Shown here: positions 9,368 through 15,997 of the stretch, piece after piece
Numbering within the stretch: position 1 is the first letter of the stretch
Layout of the letters: each line of letters starts with the position of its first letter
DNA from: Bacilli bacterium
GTDB taxonomy: Bacteria > Bacillota_I > Bacilli_A > RF39 > UBA660
Assembly: GCA_900757295.1 (NCBI GenBank)
Contig: CAAENH010000086.1
Coordinates: 1 to 24,688 of the forward strand
Direction of reading: 5' to 3'
DNA length: 24,688 nucleotides
The notes under the pieces: generated by a model
What the model was told of the DNA's origin: nothing
Database searches by the model: none
The model's input: only the letters and a program-made list of their open reading frames with translations
Made by a program: the position numbers and the translations under genes

Positions 9368-9393
9368 AAAAAAAGAAATCCTAAAGATTCCTT
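9368..9393 (-). terminator. Terminator of the TasA-like gene
   Basis: An 8-bp stem (9373-9380 with 9386-9393) overlaps the stop codon and is followed by T residues on the minus strand. Confidence 0.75.
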
Positions 9394-9937
9394 ATCTAGT
9401 AGCCACAGCTTCAGCAGTTACTATACTACTAAAACTTTTATTTGCAGCATTTGAAGAGGTTGCACTTTCAATTACCCAATTTCTTACATATAAAGTTGTA
9501 CTCGTATTAGCTCCTAAAACACCACTAGCAATTTTATAGGAACTAGAGAAATTAGAAGAAGTAGTGTTCACAGTTGAATAACCAGTCAAAGTTTTCACAC
9601 TACTACCAACAGAAACTCTAACTAAATTAGACGCTAATGTTGATGTTTTCAAAACATTGTACATTACATTATACGTAACTTTTGTTTTACATGTATTGCT
9701 TATAGTTAATGTGAAAGGATCAGTAATCAAACCTTCAGCATCTGACATAGGAGCCGTATTGCTAAGAGACATTGTTCCTCTTCCGCTAAAATTAACTTTA
9801 AAGCAATCATAAGTAGCTGTATTAGTTCCAGTTTGAGTAAAATTGCTAGTCCATAAAGCATATGCTACGCCAATACCCGCAATAATTAATACCCCACAAA
9901 TTATATATATTAACTTTTTATTGATATTTTTATCCAT
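9392..9937 (-). CDS. TasA/camelysin-like secreted surface protein
   Basis: 181 aa. Residues 8-28 are a hydrophobic segment (IYIICGVLIIAGIGVAYALW) followed at once by SNFTQTGTNTATYDC. This matches the layout of TasA, camelysin and related exported proteins, whose signal peptide runs into the first beta strand. The rest is Ser/Thr/Asn rich and beta-strand prone, with only two cysteines (44 and 83), which may form a disulfide. There is no sortase motif and no SipW-type peptidase gene nearby. The ATG follows AGGAGA and lies 20 bases after nusG, so it is probably expressed from the secE promoter and ended by its own terminator. Fold assignment is by overall pattern only. Confidence 0.6.
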   Translation of the reverse strand: MDKNINKKLIYIICGVLIIAGIGVAYALWTSNFTQTGTNTATYDCFKVNFSGRGTMSLSNTAPMSDAEGLITDPFTLTISNTCKTKVTYNVMYNVLKTSTLASNLVRVSVGSSVKTLTGYSTVNTTSSNFSSSYKIASGVLGANTSTTLYVRNWVIESATSSNAANKSFSSIVTAEAVATR

Positions 9938-9957
9938 TAATATTATCTCCTATAAAA

Positions 9958-10491
9958 TTACAATTTGCTAACTTGAAACAATTCTACTTCAACAGGTGTT
10001 TCTTGACCAAATAAATCGATTAATACATTTAAACGTTTATTTTCTAAGTCAACACTATCAATAACGCCTTCCATTCCTTTAAATGGTCCATCAATAATAC
10101 TAACTTTATCGCCTTTTTTCATTTCAGATTCAGCATCAATACGGCTCATTCCCATATTTGCTAAAACTCTATCTATTTCTTGAGGAAGTAATGGTGTAGG
10201 TTTTGCACCTTTACCAGAAGATCCAATAAAACCAGTTACACCTGGAGTATTACGAACAATATACCATGCTTCATCGCTCATAACCATTTCTACTAAAATA
10301 TATCCAGGAAACATCTTTTTCTTTTTTTCTTTTTGAACACCATCTTTAACTTCTACTTCAGTAGTTTCTGGTACTATAACTCTATAGATGTAATCTTGCA
10401 TTCCCATAGATTCAGTACGCATTTCTAATTTTTCTTTAACTTTACTTTCATGTCCACTATAAGTATTAACAACATACCATAATTTTTCCAT
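9958..10491 (-). CDS. nusG: Transcription termination/antitermination factor NusG
   Basis: 177 aa. NGN domain from WYVVNTYSGHESKVKEKLE through MFPGYILVEM and VRNTPGVTGFIG, then a linker, then the KOW domain (KKGDKVSIIDGPFKGMEGVI). NusG binds RNA polymerase and couples it to the ribosome or to pause control. Its ATG is one base after the secE stop, and its ribosome binding site (AAAGGGGG) lies within secE, so the two are translationally coupled. Confidence 0.97.
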   Translation of the reverse strand: MEKLWYVVNTYSGHESKVKEKLEMRTESMGMQDYIYRVIVPETTEVEVKDGVQKEKKKKMFPGYILVEMVMSDEAWYIVRNTPGVTGFIGSSGKGAKPTPLLPQEIDRVLANMGMSRIDAESEMKKGDKVSIIDGPFKGMEGVIDSVDLENKRLNVLIDLFGQETPVEVELFQVSKL

Positions 10492-10790: not shown

Positions 10791-12923
10791 CTAAATTATT
10801 TTATTAATTTCAATATTTTTTATTGCTCTATCCAATTCTCTAAAACCATATCTTTGATAATTAGCTTTATTTAAGATTTCTTCTTCATCAACATCTTTTA
10901 TATTTTTATTAATATACTTTATTGCACTTTTTTTATCAATACTATTATAAGTAATAACTTCATCAATTCTATTAACAATCTCTTTGCTTAAGTATGGATT
11001 ATTTAAGGTGATTTTAGAAAAACCTACTGTACTACTAATATTTTCATTAGAAGTCATAAAAATAATAGATTTATTAAACATTACCTTCTCATTATTAGAA
11101 AGGGTTATAAATCCTTCATCTAATATTTGCAAAAATAAATTTATAACCTTAGGATTAGCTTTTTCAATCTCATCTAATAATATTATTGAATAAGGATTTA
11201 GCTTTACTTGTTTAAATACATAATCATCATTATAACCAACATAACCAGCAGAAACACCTATAAGTTTATTAACAGATGTATCTAAATTATACTCACTCAT
11301 ATCTAATCTAATAAAATTAATATTTAAAGCTTTAGCAAAAGTCTTAACCGTAAAAGTTTTTCCAACTCCAGTAGGTCCTACCAGTAATAAAGATAAAGGT
11401 TTAATTACACTTTTATTATTTAAATAATTTTTATAATTTAATAATATTTTATTTATAGCTTCATCTTGGCCAATAATATTATTTATCAAACATTTTTTAA
11501 CATTATTATATAACTCAGTTTTATTTTCTAATAGTGGTATATTAGTTTTATTTTCTATTACTTCTAAAATATCTTTCTTTTGAATTTGTAAACTATATGT
11601 ATTATTCAAATTATCTATTTCTTTAGAAATTCTATTTTCTTCGGTTTTATACTTTAAAGCTTTAGTATAATCATTGTTAATAACACTATTTTTCTTTTTA
11701 TTTAAAACTTCTTGTAATTTTTTCTTTAAGTTATTACACTCATTATTATTTAAGTTATGAAGCTTTACTTTAGCACAAACAGAATCAAGCACATCTATAC
11801 ACTTATCAGGATTATTTTTGTTATATATATATTTATTAGCAAAATAAATGATATCTTTAATATTTTTATTAGAAATTTTAATATTATGGTGTTTTTCATA
11901 TTCTTTTTTTATAGCCTTTAAAATTATTTCTGTTTCTTCATCAGTTGGTTCAGATATTAATATTTTTTGAAATCTTCTTTCTAAAGCTTTATCTTTTGCA
12001 ATATATTTTTCATATTCTTCAGTAGTAGTTGCACCAATACATTTTATTTGACCTCTTGCTAAATAAGGTTTTAAAATATTTGATGCATCAATAGCTCCCT
12101 CAGCACCTCCAGCATTTACCAAAGTATGAATTTCATCAATAAATAAAATAATATCTTTCTCATTAACAACTTCTTCAATTATTTTATTTAATCTTTCTTC
12201 AAATTCACCGCGATATTTTGTCCCAGCAACTAAACTAGACATTTCTAACATAATAATTTTTTTATTTATCAGTTCATCTGTAACTTGCTTTTTTTCAATA
12301 CGTCGCGCCAATTCTTCAATAATAGCAGTTTTACCTGTTCCAGCTTTACCGACAAGTAAAGGATTATTTTTATTTTTTCTTAATAATGTTTCTATTATTA
12401 AATCAAGTTCTTTTTCTCTAGCTACAACTTTTTCATCTAAATTAACACTTTTATTTAAATTTTGACCAATTTCATAAATCACCAACTTATTAATATGCTT
12501 AATTGATGAATTTTTCAATTCCTTATATAGCTGATCTAAGTTAATATTTAGGCTCATCATTATTCTTATTGCTATACCTTCAGCTTCTTCTAGTAAACTT
12601 AAAAATAAATGAGTAGTAGTAACAATGCCCTTATTATCTTCTTTAGCATCTTCTAAAGCATTATCAATAACCCTTTTTAATAAAGGTGTATATAAAGAAA
12701 ATTCACTTTTTTTACTACCGGTTCCAACAATATTAATTAATTCATTCTTAAAAATTTTATAATTCAAATTATTATTATTAAGTATTTTAGTCAGCTTATC
12801 ATTATTTGAAAGTATTGCTAAAAGTAAATGTTCACTTCCAACATAAGGATGTTTTAGTTCTTGCATTTCATTTTCTGCTTTTTTAAATATTTTTGCTATT
12901 TCAAAATTAAAGTTATCAAACAT
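10791..12923 (-). CDS. clpC: ClpC-like AAA+ protein unfoldase, compact form
   Basis: 710 aa, shorter than the usual 810-850. Clp N domain (1-145, with VGSEHLLLAIL and TTHLFLSLL); D1 with Walker A GKAGTGKT (192-199), Walker B FIDEIHTL (261-268) and arginine finger region ERRF (315-318); a coiled linker containing a UVR-like segment DYTKALKYKTEEN (418-430); D2 with Walker A GPTGVGKT (516-523) and Walker B LLDEIEKA. The ClpP-docking tripeptide VGF is at 633-635, so it should feed ClpP. The D2 small domain stops soon after YGFRELDRAI, lacking the normal C-terminal end. RBS AGGAGGAAT. No ctsR or mcsAB neighbours. The gap before it holds TTGACA (12981-12986) but only a weak -10. Confidence 0.88.
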   Translation of the reverse strand: MFDNFNFEIAKIFKKAENEMQELKHPYVGSEHLLLAILSNNDKLTKILNNNNLNYKIFKNELINIVGTGSKKSEFSLYTPLLKRVIDNALEDAKEDNKGIVTTTHLFLSLLEEAEGIAIRIMMSLNINLDQLYKELKNSSIKHINKLVIYEIGQNLNKSVNLDEKVVAREKELDLIIETLLRKNKNNPLLVGKAGTGKTAIIEELARRIEKKQVTDELINKKIIMLEMSSLVAGTKYRGEFEERLNKIIEEVVNEKDIILFIDEIHTLVNAGGAEGAIDASNILKPYLARGQIKCIGATTTEEYEKYIAKDKALERRFQKILISEPTDEETEIILKAIKKEYEKHHNIKISNKNIKDIIYFANKYIYNKNNPDKCIDVLDSVCAKVKLHNLNNNECNNLKKKLQEVLNKKKNSVINNDYTKALKYKTEENRISKEIDNLNNTYSLQIQKKDILEVIENKTNIPLLENKTELYNNVKKCLINNIIGQDEAINKILLNYKNYLNNKSVIKPLSLLLVGPTGVGKTFTVKTFAKALNINFIRLDMSEYNLDTSVNKLIGVSAGYVGYNDDYVFKQVKLNPYSIILLDEIEKANPKVINLFLQILDEGFITLSNNEKVMFNKSIIFMTSNENISSTVGFSKITLNNPYLSKEIVNRIDEVITYNSIDKKSAIKYINKNIKDVDEEEILNKANYQRYGFRELDRAIKNIEINKII

Positions 12924-13011: not shown

Positions 13012-13110
13012 TTATTTTTGATTTCTAGATATATTTAAAATAATTCCTATACTAACCATACTTACTAATAAACTAGATCCACCATAGGATAGAAAAGGTA
13101 ACGTAACACC
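13012..13110 (-). pseudogene. Detached copy of the ftsW 3' end
   Basis: Minus-strand translation from 13110 gives 32 residues to TAA at 13012: GVTLPFLSYGGSSLLVSM, then VSIGIILNISRNQK. It matches the last 32 residues of the intact FtsW at all but five positions and has exactly the same length. There is no start codon or ribosome binding site, and an in-frame TAG lies just upstream, so it is not expressed as a gene. At DNA level 69 of the inner 80 bases match 14886-14965. Confidence 0.85.
13076..13110. repeat. 35-bp perfect direct repeat, copy 1 (candidate att core)
   Basis: Identical to 14931-14965, in the same orientation. It is the ftsW segment encoding GVTLPFLSYGG. Identity stops abruptly at 13110 on the inner side; towards 13031 the match to the other copy falls to 34 of 45. 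Confidence 0.8.
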
Positions 13111-13133
13111 CTAATATTTTATGTAGGAAACAT

Positions 13134-13188
13134 TTACAAAATGACTGAAAAATGATAGTAATGTTTCAAAATAACTGAAATATTATAG
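13134..13188. repeat. Two 25-bp direct repeats at 30-bp spacing
   Basis: 13134-13158 and 13164-13188 match at 21 of 25 positions (shared pattern TTnCAAAATnACTGAAA). They lie between the recombinase 3' end, partly overlapping its stop, and the candidate att core, where recombinase arm sites would be expected. Confidence 0.55.
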
Positions 13189-13677
13189 TTCTTCTAATAG
13201 CTCTGGAAATTTTAAATAAACATACACTTTTTTATCTTTGTCAATTTCAATTCTATCCACAAGCCTTTTTATTTGATCTTTAGTAGGAGTTTTTAAAGAC
13301 ATATAATCTAAAACTGAATTTTTGCATTTTTTAAAATTAGTGCTATTTAATGGTTGATTTTCATTAACTTCTTTTTTCTTATTTAATTCTTCTAATTACA
13401 TATTAATTCTAGTTATTTCTTTATTTGTTTTGTCGTAAATTCTTTTATACATTTCTTCATCAACTAAGCCTTTAATCTTGTCCATATATAGATTATCTAT
13501 GGTTGATTTATGAGAATTTAATAGATTATTTTCAATTTCACTTAGAAATGATGCTATTGTTCTTGTACTCTTTAAATAATCTGCAATAATATTTTTTGTT
13601 GTTTTATTTAAAGAAGTACTAGTTTGTTTAGATATATCATATAGTTCATCAGCAACTCTTAAAGTAATTATTTTCAT
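13183..13677 (-). pseudogene. Serine recombinase C-terminal remnant fused to a ribbon-helix-helix-like start
   Basis: One frame runs from ATG 13677 to TAA 13183, broken by TAA at 13396-13398. The last 70 codons after the break (ending LVDRIEIDKDKKVYVYLKF plus a short tail) resemble the C-terminal end of large serine recombinases, and residues from about 52 (NLYMDKIKGLVDEEMYKRIYD) resemble their coiled-coil. The first 45 residues (MKIITLRVADELYDISKQTS) look instead like a ribbon-helix-helix DNA-binding protein. The catalytic resolvase domain and the zinc region are absent. It reads as a deletion that joined two genes, followed by a nonsense mutation. The 93-residue front part could still be translated (GAAGTGAT before the ATG). 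Family call from pattern only. Confidence 0.6.
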
Positions 13678-13860
13678 TTCTTATCACTTCTTTCTTTATT
13701 TTATTTGCTAAATTGTGAATCATTTTAGGTTTTATTTTTTCTCAAAACTATTTATTTTTTATAATGGGCATAAGGAGAACGACACCACAAATCTTATTCT
13801 TCCTTTTAAACGAAAAGAAAAGAGTGGTGGATAGTACTACCTGTCAAGTACACACAAAAT
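13678..13860. other. Non-coding stretch inside the candidate element
   Basis: No supported gene. A 32-codon plus-strand frame (13764-13862) lacks a ribosome binding site. The segment 13765-13855 is richer in G and C than its surroundings, with an internal TAGTACTA palindrome and TTGACA on the minus strand but no -10. It looks like relic sequence from the element. Confidence 0.45.
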
Positions 13861-13889
13861 AAAAGAGTATTGAACTTTGTCAACACTCT
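13856..13889 (-). terminator. Second terminator after the 281-aa gene
   Basis: A 10-bp stem (13864-13873 with 13880-13889, one G-U pair), 6-nt loop, then TTTTATTTT on the minus strand. Confidence 0.75.
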
Positions 13890-13892
13890 GAA

Positions 13893-13917
13893 AATAGAAA
13901 GTATTAGACTTTCTATT
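13893..13917 (-). terminator. First hairpin at the end of the 281-aa gene
   Basis: A perfect 10-bp stem (13893-13902 with 13908-13917), 5-nt loop, overlapping the stop codon. Only two T follow before other bases, so the downstream hairpin is the stronger terminator. Confidence 0.55.
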
Positions 13918-14761
13918 AAGATATTTTTTTAATATTACTAAAATAATAATTATTATTATCATCAAGATTAAATGTATACTGATAATGACCATATTTTTTA
14001 TAATTAGTATTATCTAAAGTAAAGTTTGAATTTGTTTCCACTAATTTCTGTTTTCTAATATCACGATATACATTATTATCAGAATCAACAACAGCTAGAT
14101 AGACATCAGCATAAAGTTTATTTGAAGAAGTTCTAGCTTCAGCAAAATAAGTTTCAACATTTATTTCATCAACATTACCACATTCGCCAAGAGCATAAAA
14201 TACTTCATTTGTGTCATCTGCAATTAACTGAGGACAATATTCTTCACCAATAAGATCAATTTTAGGTAAATCTGATGAACCATAAAGTTCATTATACTCT
14301 TTTGTTAAAAATGAATAAGAAATTGTTGCACTATTTAAATTAATAACTTCATCTGAAACATCACTATTTAACTTACTTCTAATAAGATCATAGCCACTTT
14401 GAATACCATTACTATAATCAAATTTATTAGTTTCAAGATTAACAAGAGCATAAAGTTTATATTGTTGTGGAATATCTTTAACATTTAGATTATCTTTAGA
14501 ATATATGTACTCTCCACTTGTACTATTAGATGGACCCATAGATTCTAATAAAGTTATTTTATTAGATATTTGCTCTAATCTGGCGTAATCTGTTATTTTT
14601 TGGGGTGTAGAATCTATATTTTCCTTTACCTTATTTACTATTCCATCACTTTTTTTAGTTGGTAAATCAAAGAAAATTTTCCATACAGCTATTATTCCTA
14701 CAATAATTACTAAAATAATAATTATTGCTATTAATCCTCTATTCTTTTTTTTAGTTTCCAT
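13916..14761 (-). CDS. Membrane-anchored extracellular protein of unknown function
   Basis: 281 aa. METKKKNRG, then a single membrane helix (10-31), then a polar domain that should be outside the cell. The domain is rich in Asp, Asn, Tyr and Ser, has cysteines at 176 (EEYCPQL) and 194 (GECGNV), and ends in a beta-strand-like stretch (YGHYQYTFNLDDNNNYYFSN). I recognise no family. It has its own promoter, a good ribosome binding site (AAGGAG) and two terminators, so it is an independent unit. It lies between ftsW and the recombinase remnant, inside the interval bounded by the ftsW direct repeats, so it may be cargo of that element. It could equally be a native gene that was trapped. Confidence 0.75.
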   Translation of the reverse strand: METKKKNRGLIAIIIILVIIVGIIAVWKIFFDLPTKKSDGIVNKVKENIDSTPQKITDYARLEQISNKITLLESMGPSNSTSGEYIYSKDNLNVKDIPQQYKLYALVNLETNKFDYSNGIQSGYDLIRSKLNSDVSDEVINLNSATISYSFLTKEYNELYGSSDLPKIDLIGEEYCPQLIADDTNEVFYALGECGNVDEINVETYFAEARTSSNKLYADVYLAVVDSDNNVYRDIRKQKLVETNSNFTLDNTNYKKYGHYQYTFNLDDNNNYYFSNIKKIS

Positions 14762-14785
14762 ATTTATTACTCCTTATTCAATTAA

Positions 14786-14814
14786 AGTATATCAATTGTT
14801 TATTTGCTTTTCAA
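14786..14814 (-). promoter_or_regulatory. Promoter of the 281-aa membrane protein
   Basis: TTGAAA (14809-14814), 17 bp, TATACT (14786-14791), about 25 bases before the ATG. Confidence 0.7.
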
Positions 14815-14866
14815 TTAATTTATTTAGACATAAACTATATTGACAAAAATTTAACATAATGCAGTT

Positions 14867-15958
14867 TTAATAGCAGTTTTGTGACACATTTAAAATTATT
14901 CCTATACTAGCCATAGAAACTAAAAGAGACGATCCACCATAGGATAGAAAAGGTAACGTAACACCTGTAACAGGAATTAAACCAATAACAACACATAAAT
15001 TTAACAATGCTTGTATTAAAATGCCAAATGATAATCCAAAAACTAAATATTTAGCAAATAAATCATTACAAGACATTGCTATTTTAAGACAACGATAAAA
15101 AATTATAAAAAAGAAAAAGCAAACTATCAAAACGCCTAAAAAGCCAAATTCTTCTGAAATAATCGAAAAAATAAAATCAGTTTGAGGTTCTGGAAGATAA
15201 AAATGTTTTTGAATTGAGTTGCCAAACCCCATTCCAAGTAAACCACCTGGACCTATTGCATATAAACTTTGAATAATTTGAAATCCACTACCTAAAGGAT
15301 CCTTCCATGGATCTAAAAAGGAAACAATTCTAGCCATTCTATAAGGTGCAACAATAATAAGGGCAACTATCCCTAACAAACCTGCACATCCTATTTTTAC
15401 AAAAAAAGAAACTTTTACTCCCGATACAAATAAAATACAAACTAAAGTAAGAACAATAACCATTCCTGTTCCAAAATCTGGTTCTAACATAATAAGGCCA
15501 AAAAATAACAGTATTATTCCTATTATTGGCAAGACACCCTTTTTTATATTTCTAATTTCTTTATTATTATTTGCTAAATATTTTGAAACAAAAATTATTA
15601 AACCAATTTTAGCAAATTCACTTGGTTGAATTCCAAATCCTCCAAAACCAAACCAACTTCTTGAACCATTTCTAACCGTACCTATTCCCGGTATCAAAAC
15701 TAAAACTAACAACAGAAAACATACACCTATAATCAAATTAGATTTTTTCTTATAAAAATTATAATCTATTTTCGAAATAAAAAGCATCATAATTATTCCT
15801 AATATATAAAATATACCTTGTGCTTTTAAAAATTTAAAAGGATCATTAAATTTATATTCTGCCCAAATATTACTAGATGAATAAATCATCAGTAATCCAA
15901 AACCTGCTAATAAAATGACCGCTAAAAATAAAATTATATCAAAGTATCTTTTTTTCAA
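14867..15958 (-). CDS. ftsW: FtsW, SEDS-family peptidoglycan glycosyltransferase
   Basis: 363 aa from a TTG start. The in-frame GTG three codons earlier is part of the ribosome binding site AAAGGTG, so TTG 15958 is preferred. About ten membrane helices. SEDS signatures: GSRSWFGFGGFGIQPSEFAK, then MLEPDFGTGMV, then QSLYAIGPGGLLGMGFGNS with the loop LPEPQTDFIFSIISEEFG, and VTGVTLPFLSYGGSSLLVSM near the end. FtsW polymerises lipid II at the septum with a class B PBP such as the one at 21562-23466. RodA is the alternative, but the motif set and partners favour FtsW. Its last 33 codons also exist as a diverged copy at 13012-13110. A terminator precedes it. Confidence 0.88.
   Translation of the reverse strand: MKKRYFDIILFLAVILLAGFGLLMIYSSSNIWAEYKFNDPFKFLKAQGIFYILGIIMMLFISKIDYNFYKKKSNLIIGVCFLLLVLVLIPGIGTVRNGSRSWFGFGGFGIQPSEFAKIGLIIFVSKYLANNNKEIRNIKKGVLPIIGIILLFFGLIMLEPDFGTGMVIVLTLVCILFVSGVKVSFFVKIGCAGLLGIVALIIVAPYRMARIVSFLDPWKDPLGSGFQIIQSLYAIGPGGLLGMGFGNSIQKHFYLPEPQTDFIFSIISEEFGFLGVLIVCFFFFIIFYRCLKIAMSCNDLFAKYLVFGLSFGILIQALLNLCVVIGLIPVTGVTLPFLSYGGSSLLVSMASIGIILNVSQNCY
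14931..14965. repeat. 35-bp perfect direct repeat, copy 2 (candidate att core within ftsW)
   Basis: Identical to 13076-13110. Here it is inside the intact ftsW frame; the coding tail on its left (14867-14930) differs from the detached copy mainly at silent positions, including Ser codons of the two different codon families. Confidence 0.8.
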
Positions 15959-15997
15959 TATAATCACCTTTATATAATCATATGAATTTTTACAAAT

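Follow-up and report, generated by a model that had tools for sequence, protein, structure and literature searches.

The contig CAAENH010000086.1 of a Bacilli bacterium assembly (GCA_900757295.1), 24,688 nucleotides long and here called the window, carries a gene of the ftsW/spoVE type and, downstream of it, a second copy of that gene's 3' end (its tail), with the remains of a large serine recombinase (LSR) gene between the two. We find that the window very probably carries the dead fossil of an LSR-element insertion that displaced the outer ftsW tail. Site-specific insertion and tail exchange are well supported in its relatives, and the phenomenon is a real, recurrent system across the family. 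More tentatively, and with somewhat less than even confidence, we propose that the ftsW/spoVE 3' end may be a recombinase-driven exchange site in this family. LSR elements would circulate tails and cargo (often an ORF6N protein with a match to PDC-S05) between species and build integron-like arrays, and insertion and excision would switch FtsW off and on.

Two ftsW tails in the window

A preliminary description made from the sequence of the window had reported a duplicated ftsW tail, and reading the sequence bears this out: the copies at 13012-13110 and 14867-14965, both on the minus strand, have 33 codons each and align with 0 indels. The outer tail (13012-13110) reads GVTLPFLSYGGSSLLVSMVSIGIILNISRNQK and the inner tail (14867-14965) GVTLPFLSYGGSSLLVSMASIGIILNVSQNCY, each followed by a stop. 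They match at 78 of 99 bases, the initial 35 being identical and all 21 mismatches lying within the final 64 (P = 2.5e-5 for clustering outside the first 35 bases, by position alone). Direct comparison places the 35-bp identity where the description had put it, and its figure of 34 matches in 45 is true for tail bases 36-80. Silent changes are in the majority, as it had also said, narrowly: 13 codons differ, 8 synonymously and 5 nonsynonymously. There is no ftsW sequence upstream of the outer tail, where the likeness stops (TATTAG/GGTGTTACG vs. TTACA/GGTGTTACG).

The two items said to lie between the tails are both present: a gene, ORF281 (281 aa, 13916-14761), and a serine-recombinase C-terminal remnant, which from 13545 down to 13186 matches the C-termini of full-length LSRs. 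The gene order is ftsW, inner tail, ORF281, LSR remnant, outer tail, clp, secE, nusG. Over its last 70 residues the remnant has 67%-72% identity to the LSRs of the related genomes G058, G133, G192, G269, and G009 (67-70 residues aligned). It is interrupted by a stop, with one piece in a 93-aa open reading frame (ORF) at 13396-13677 and a further piece after the stop. The first ~49 residues of this ORF have no LSR likeness, and its second half is recombinase; neither remnant piece was recognized in a Pfam scan. By eye, the N-terminal ~49 residues resemble the start of a small DNA-binding (antitoxin-like) protein fused to the remnant. In alignment with the right end of the G058 element, the window's right end lacks ~20 bp near the core, so the window copy should be inactive and is probably immobile.

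Elements in relatives cut ftsW at one glycine codon

The window FtsW was scanned against a collection of species genomes, in which at least 421 stretches encode a relative. The best 80 were kept; the relatives are uncultured bins titled Bacilli, Tenericutes, Erysipelotrichaceae, and similar (genomes, loci, and FtsW proteins are denoted below by G, L, and P numbers). In four of the best 80 (L005, L007, L060, and L080), ftsW is cut at the same codon and its tail is absent from the locus, and L015 stops at the contig edge. Whole-genome searches located the missing tails: they share the contig of the ftsW body in G005 (~10 kb downstream) and G007 (~11 kb downstream) and lie on other contigs in G009 and G010. 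Elements are complete on one contig in G005 (10.2 kb), G007 (11.2 kb), G133 (8.7 kb), G152 (7.9 kb), and G192 (14.6 kb). With these intact elements and the remnant in the window, the proposed integration of a serine-recombinase element in the 3' part of ftsW stands. In G005, with genes named by eye, the ftsW body is followed by the 10.2-kb element, whose last gene is that of the LSR, and then by tail, ORF6N, Nudix, AAA, clp, a 245-aa ORF, and secE, at which the sequence stretch ends.

In the relatives, ftsW is cut at the Gly codon of V-T-G/V-T (the slash marks the cut), and 19 out of 22 body-side sequences continue as element after the GG. Among the remaining three, the G140 contig ends at GG, that of G097 ends earlier, and the G272 junction was not found by pattern. 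The truncated FtsW proteins end, for example, in VTG, VTGVALLLHS, or VTGYALLLYS, followed by a stop. Every one of the 19 left junctions read has the GG of the Gly codon, as do the right junctions that have not decayed; G094 has GA at its right junction. Eight elements have both an intact LSR and a left junction that can be read; in all of them the left end is not a tail, and FtsW stops after 0-12 element-encoded residues. G106 is the ninth locus with an LSR, and there the search found no ftsW body. In the ftsW body of G018 (L221, G018:C14:16418-21011) we also note an extra interruption of ~3.6 kb near query residue 218, in addition to the cut at the Gly codon.

We rejoined the two ends of each of 15 elements and scored dyad symmetry over 22 pairs; the summed score is 160 at GG, compared with 63-104 at offsets of 1-8 (16 offsets). 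Nine elements score best at GG alone, three tie, and three score better elsewhere (G192, G210, and G152). Left and right ends sort into matching groups that are found across species. The elements of G068, G088, G101, and G259, which are four species with different tails, have the same left end (62-77 bases available) and the same last 43-45 right-end bases; identical ends despite different species and tails point to recent transfer. A right end joined to a left end, as in an attP-type site, occurs in G269 between a tail-cargo unit and an element remnant; this is the single long match of a left-end BLAST search of 13 loci. For the left end of the window, BLAST with 11 left ends gave short matches only, which we take as chance.

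The full-length LSRs, at nine loci, have 524-539 aa, and their genes end 57-89 bp before the core. In the LSR of G058, the only copy scanned, we found the domains Resolvase (PF00239), Recombinase (PF07508), and zinc-ribbon (PF13408). Its best matches among solved structures are TnpX (6.4e-30) and YokA (6.1e-14), and with the NCBIfam Ccr models it scores 119.9 bits (CcrB) and 109.1 bits (CcrC), far below the cut-off of 900. With phage origin in mind, one query was run against viral contigs and found eight distant LSR relatives, at 32%-35% identity. Two side observations concern gene content. G009 has a second, distant serine recombinase (~25% identity; L113 2846-4360, minus strand) ~2 kb downstream of its displaced tail. 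The G133 element (L188 7483-9510, minus strand) encodes a long VirD4/TraG-type coupling-like protein, with a DNA methyltransferase-like one nearby (both by eye), which suggests that this element is mobilizable.

Displaced tails, arrays, and cargo

A tail query matched 288 of the 291 genomes of G004's family. We re-searched 57 of the 291, 47 with a best E-value of ~1e-9 to 4e-14 and 10 with four matches, and in 29 the tail match begins at the Gly codon or no more than four residues from it, in a frame of at most 69 aa. Adding G004, G008, G009, and G010, tails outside ftsW that begin at the Gly codon are present in at least 33 of the 291 genomes. This is a lower bound over bins of unknown completeness, covering the 57 re-searched genomes and the matches listed for them. 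Note that the tail match of G004 begins seven residues before the Gly, while its ftsW likeness begins at the core. The displaced tail is preceded by non-ftsW sequence in 30 of the 33 and lies at a contig edge in three (G140, G097, and G153), with the edge at the core or 3 bp before it; G153 has a second, decayed tail further on. Decayed tails such as those of L053, L061, and L065 needed a looser local search, and extra right-end matches of weak score occur in L014, L017, L046, L060, and L063.

In 22 genomes with no restored ftsW in view (no body was found in G106, G053, and G016), the frame of the displaced tail is open throughout; in G272 and G295 this tail is altered. Where a restored ftsW stands alongside, the displaced tail has often decayed, through a frameshift (G269), loss of the motif (G235 and L061), or a change in codon 1 or 2 (G094, G240, and L053); it is intact in the window, G004, G008, G276, and G129. 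Apart from the window and G004, a second or third tail is present in G008, G276, G240, G129, G269, G094, G235, G153, G141, L053, L061, and L065. In these arrays, the ORF before the next tail ends ~21-84 bp upstream of that tail. Swapped tails on restored genes accompany tail-cargo units that are LSR-less or decayed and sometimes stand in arrays. In G005 and G141, an intact LSR is followed by a first tail, ORF6N, and a decayed tail, and G005 has a recognizable second right end; this is the structure needed for excision at either a near or a far junction.

The ORF6N protein matches the PADLOC candidate defense family PDC-S05 (1.6e-92). Among 69 loci whose sequence continues for at least 1 kb past ftsW, eight have it no more than 1.5 kb beyond the ftsW stop, and four further segments lie elsewhere in these loci. 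For ORF281, PADLOC gave no match and Pfam none near cut-off. Its relatives in a large database comprise five proteins, two at 67%-69% identity to the G004 type; in G004, a frameshifted ORF281 homolog follows the same tail type directly before clp.

An assembly or binning artifact, in which an empty ftsW site and a circular molecule were misjoined at the 35-bp repeat, would also yield two tails. Record titles of the relatives mostly name metagenome-assembled genomes, and two G140 contigs break at the core: the body contig ends in AACAGG and the tail contig starts with GGAGTAAC, both exactly at GG. Such breaks would be expected if several junction states coexist, as they may here. We consider an artifact highly improbable, given that five elements are complete on single contigs and same-species variants are separate records. 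Further, a 207-aa form of ORF281 has entries on 11 contigs, of up to 506 kb, and an FtsW with the same end as that of the window (100% identity as rounded) has 39 member sequences and two contigs.

Native and foreign tails

We compared 120 listed out of 2539 FtsW homologs, which are protein records without genomic context. For G007, the bodies of the truncated proteins P0021 and P0022 match that of P0012 at 329/332 and 328/332 residues, and P0012 ends in the orphan tail of G007. The G004 body equals that of P0013 over the 321 residues compared, and P0013 ends in VSRNCY, as does the G004 orphan tail. G004's own tail is identical (31/31) to those of P0069, P0070, P0073, and P0081, the bodies of which agree at 254-255 of 321 residues. 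In G004, therefore, the outer tail is native and the inner tail is shared with another species. At the protein level, the empty site is seen in two relatives, as P0012 compared with P0021 and P0022 (G007) and as P0013 (G004).

Near-identical bodies with different tails recur among the listed proteins: P0069, P0070, P0073, and P0081 vs. P0072, P0082, and P0090 (328-331/332), and P0052, P0080, P0083, P0084, P0085, and P0093 vs. P0071, P0110, and P0112 (at most two differences in the pairs listed). The bodies of P0030 and P0034 match at 322/332. The likeness between the window and G004 is reciprocal: the inner tail of the window is like the outer tail of G004 (74/84 bases), and its outer tail is like the inner tail of G004 (73/84). 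The assignment of the outer tail as native and the inner as foreign agrees with the position of the displaced tail and with the G007 and G004 variants; for the window itself it holds by analogy only.

In a search of 386 family genomes for the donor DNA of the G004 tail, no near-identical match was found outside G004 (the best by E-value was 83% over 105 bases). As a side observation, a stretch of ~70 bp downstream of that tail (L004 4167-4239, the end of G004:C75) recurs at 76%-87% identity in nine listed genomes (G058, G032, G009, G111, G117, G083, G251, G381, and G389), in several cases close to the end of a contig, and another mobile element may have its edge here.

The 35-bp identical block

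The preliminary description had taken the 35-bp block to be the recombinase core and expected it at the ends of intact serine-recombinase elements. Such elements do occur at ftsW; the core they share is GG. As a core the block fails: GG alone is common to the junctions, the dyad is centered there, and the extent of the block varies. The initial identical run between inner and outer tail is 35 bases in the window, 35 in G004 (with other alleles), and 83 in L003, and the G129 tails have one mismatch in the first 69 bases. In G008, G269, and G276, the first 35 bases have 25-28 matches, which is the control level (mean 26.3, maximum 30; 36 pairs of nine tails). The tails of G240 and G094 instead agree toward their 3' ends (50/52 and 48/52). 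With a length that differs by locus and several loci at control level, the block was rejected as core. Mosaic identity of this kind fits gene conversion or homologous crossover between duplicates, with no fixed core.

A simple in-place tandem duplication of the ftsW end, diverging later, would also give two tails, and in L003/G003 a copy of ftsW residues 277-364 reaches far upstream of the Gly codon, with its first 83 tail bases identical. This locus was left out of the LSR cases because the copy extends into the ftsW body. The window outer copy instead begins at the codon that is cut in 19 relatives, after LSR and right-end remnants, and beyond the 35 bp the window tails are as different as tails of different genomes (37/52 matches vs. 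a mean of 35.1/52 in 36 between-genome pairs). We rejected tandem duplication for the window as scarcely credible, the breakpoint being shared precisely with the LSR elements. The copy in L003 itself (9796-10074) is 5'-truncated, has its own last residues, and lies near the contig end; it is of a non-element type and possibly represents a duplication or an assembly effect.

How a foreign tail may reach ftsW

In the mechanism that we propose, the LSR would join attB, at which GG links the ftsW body to its tail, to attP, at which GG links the right end to the left end. The product would be ftsW, left end, cargo, LSR, right end, and tail. This is the arrangement read in relatives, where FtsW is truncated and the native tail is parked behind the element. 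In the window, we infer that the body and the native tail are now separated by a unit that consists of a different ftsW tail, ORF281, a partial LSR, and a right end; FtsW would now end in a foreign tail, with the native tail orphaned beside clp. The LSR could excise with a choice of right junctions, and use of the far one (second right end, second tail) would carry off the first tail with its cargo. In a new host, exit by the near junction would leave the first tail, cargo, and second right end joined to the host tail. Gene conversion would later have equalized the first 35 bp of both tails, and the LSR and right half site would have decayed. Of the routes considered, we take this near/far excision as the most likely, though at well under even confidence.

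The preliminary description had the element itself bring in the tail. The window inner tail can indeed be of other origin, although none of the eight LSR-intact elements with a readable left junction has brought one. A variant in which the element carries a tail as its own left end, replaces the host tail in one step, and leaves the gene whole is accordingly unlikely, since these eight truncate FtsW by a non-tail left end and no restored-ftsW locus shows an intact LSR in the sequence available. What this variant would explain is a restored ftsW with an extra tail, seen in the window, G008, G276, G240, G129, G269, L053, L061, and L065, and on separate contigs in G004, G094, and G235; in G094 and G235, little sequence precedes the orphan tail.

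Rather less doubtful than one-step replacement, but still unlikely by our estimate, is a repair route: an element cut ftsW at GG, and a patch from a relative's intact ftsW, tail, and ORF281 was then introduced by homologous recombination. The gene would be restored and most of the element overwritten, with the LSR end, right end, and native tail remaining, which is compatible with prior LSR insertion. One such step explains the restored ftsW, the lost 5' part of the LSR, the G004-like ORF281 order, and mosaic tails with varying breakpoints. The distance by which preceding ORFs end before the next tail elsewhere (~21-84 bp) is nevertheless too regular for random illegitimate junctions, and the attP-type junction in G269 points to site-specific chemistry.

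Several points weigh against the reading of the window as an LSR-element remnant with an exchanged tail. Tail arrival is unobserved: no restored-ftsW locus has an intact LSR or a left end right after the new tail. No strain of the window's species was seen with the native tail on ftsW or with an empty site, and the predicted ISRNQK end directly before clp was not found for that species. The restored ftsW and the orphan tail of G004 sit on different contigs, and the tail-ORF281 unit, which stands directly before clp there, may have long been chromosomal in the genus and not be cargo of an element. The identity of the first 35 bp in the window and G004 makes a GG crossover alone insufficient, so that gene conversion is needed. 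Finally, three of the 15 elements score higher for the dyad off GG and three tie, and the 15 form fewer end groups, hence are not independent.

The target gene and other features of the window

The window protein, of the SEDS (shape, elongation, division, and sporulation) type, scores 454.4 bits with the NCBIfam spoVE model (cut-off 448.8) and 418 bits with ftsW (cut-off 337.5), the higher score being for SpoVE. Whole-genome searches of relatives show that two further SEDS genes per genome are usual. Those of G007 are one RodA-like gene and one scoring between FtsW and RodA, both under equivalog cut-offs. To call the target an essential division gene, as was done at first, is doubtful and unproven for a protein that passes the SpoVE and FtsW models and has paralogs. 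The double match and the further SEDS genes indicate that truncation may be survivable. The part of FtsW lost on insertion we take to be the last transmembrane helix. Genes named by eye downstream of ftsW are murG and murB in G269 and murC in G240.

Table 1. Position and basis of features assigned in the window
Feature	Coordinates	Strand	Basis
ftsW/spoVE-type SEDS gene, 366 aa, insertion target	14867..15967	-	NCBIfam, Pfam PF01098
Crossover dinucleotide GG, Gly codon of V-T-G/V-T in ftsW	14964..14965	-	Junctions in relatives, dyad center
Inner tail, present functional ftsW end	14867..14963	-	Like ORF281-linked tail of G004, 74/84 bases
ORF281, N-terminal hydrophobic stretch, linked to inner tail	13916..14761	-	ORF; homolog in G004
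LSR C-terminal remnant, pseudogene	13186..13545	-	tblastn with full-length LSRs and remnant pieces
Element right-end remnant (P-type half site), ~20 bp missing near core	13111..13185	-	Alignment with G058 right end
GG crossover dinucleotide, right junction (attR)	13109..13110	-	Sequence, relatives' junctions
Outer tail, displaced ftsW 3' end, frame open, startless	13012..13110	-	Sequence comparison
Clp-type ATPase gene, marker of native downstream side	10791..12923	-	Same side and orientation in L001, L002, L006, G005, G004

Near nusG, the window encodes one short protein (9392-9937) with a hydrophobic N-terminus and a W..F.Q.G.N...DCF-like motif, and at the corresponding place L006 (9969-12572) and L115 (5505-8112) have two long adjacent proteins of the same motif type (all by eye). 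The locus is variable, and its products are possibly surface proteins.

Comparison with known systems

With these results, a gene for cell-wall synthesis joins the LSR targets of which we are aware, and several diverged LSR groups use one short conserved coding site in it (V-T-G/V-T of a SEDS protein). The results describe a mobile element that alters the sequence of a conserved host protein, beyond merely breaking or sparing it. They also offer a natural setting in which to study bacterial life with a truncated FtsW/SpoVE and possible regulation of excision. TnpX and the SPbeta recombinase YokA share the Resolvase, Recombinase, and zinc-ribbon likeness of the LSRs and are distant in sequence; their attachment sites differ from the ftsW site. 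Integron cassettes are tandem units of a gene and a half site behind one anchor point. Here, in contrast, the enzymes are serine recombinases rather than a tyrosine integrase, and a copy of the end of a host gene opens every unit.

We found no report of ftsW or spoVE as a serine-recombinase or integrase attachment site in the literature covered, a weak absence as most subscription papers and bioRxiv lay outside it. According to passages of one large study, LSRs converge on conserved coding sites such as those in a Mg-chelatase-type gene and a prolyl isomerase (PMC10083194); similarly, diverged LSR groups share one conserved intragenic coding site here. The main text of that study has 0 occurrences of ftsW and spoVE, and its passages on such sites do not describe species-to-species exchange of gene ends (PMC10083194). 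Unlike genomic islands that reconstitute their target gene, as portrayed in part of PMC12884075, the LSR-intact elements leave ftsW unrestored, and restored copies bear a tail of other origin.

Parallels can also be drawn to SCCmec and other staphylococcal cassette chromosomes (SCC; CcrAB and CcrC; rlmH 3' region) and to the enterococcal cassette chromosome (ECC). In the sections of PMC6222049 that treat them, these are likewise LSR-encoded islands with variable cargo, at a fixed site in the 3' region of a conserved gene, with remnant att sites beside the target. Unlike SCC, which enters rlmH, the elements here target ftsW/spoVE with a crossover 31 codons ahead of the final residue, so that LSR-intact copies truncate the protein. 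Moreover, tails shared with other species occur on the target gene here, and the LSR falls below the Ccr model cut-off.

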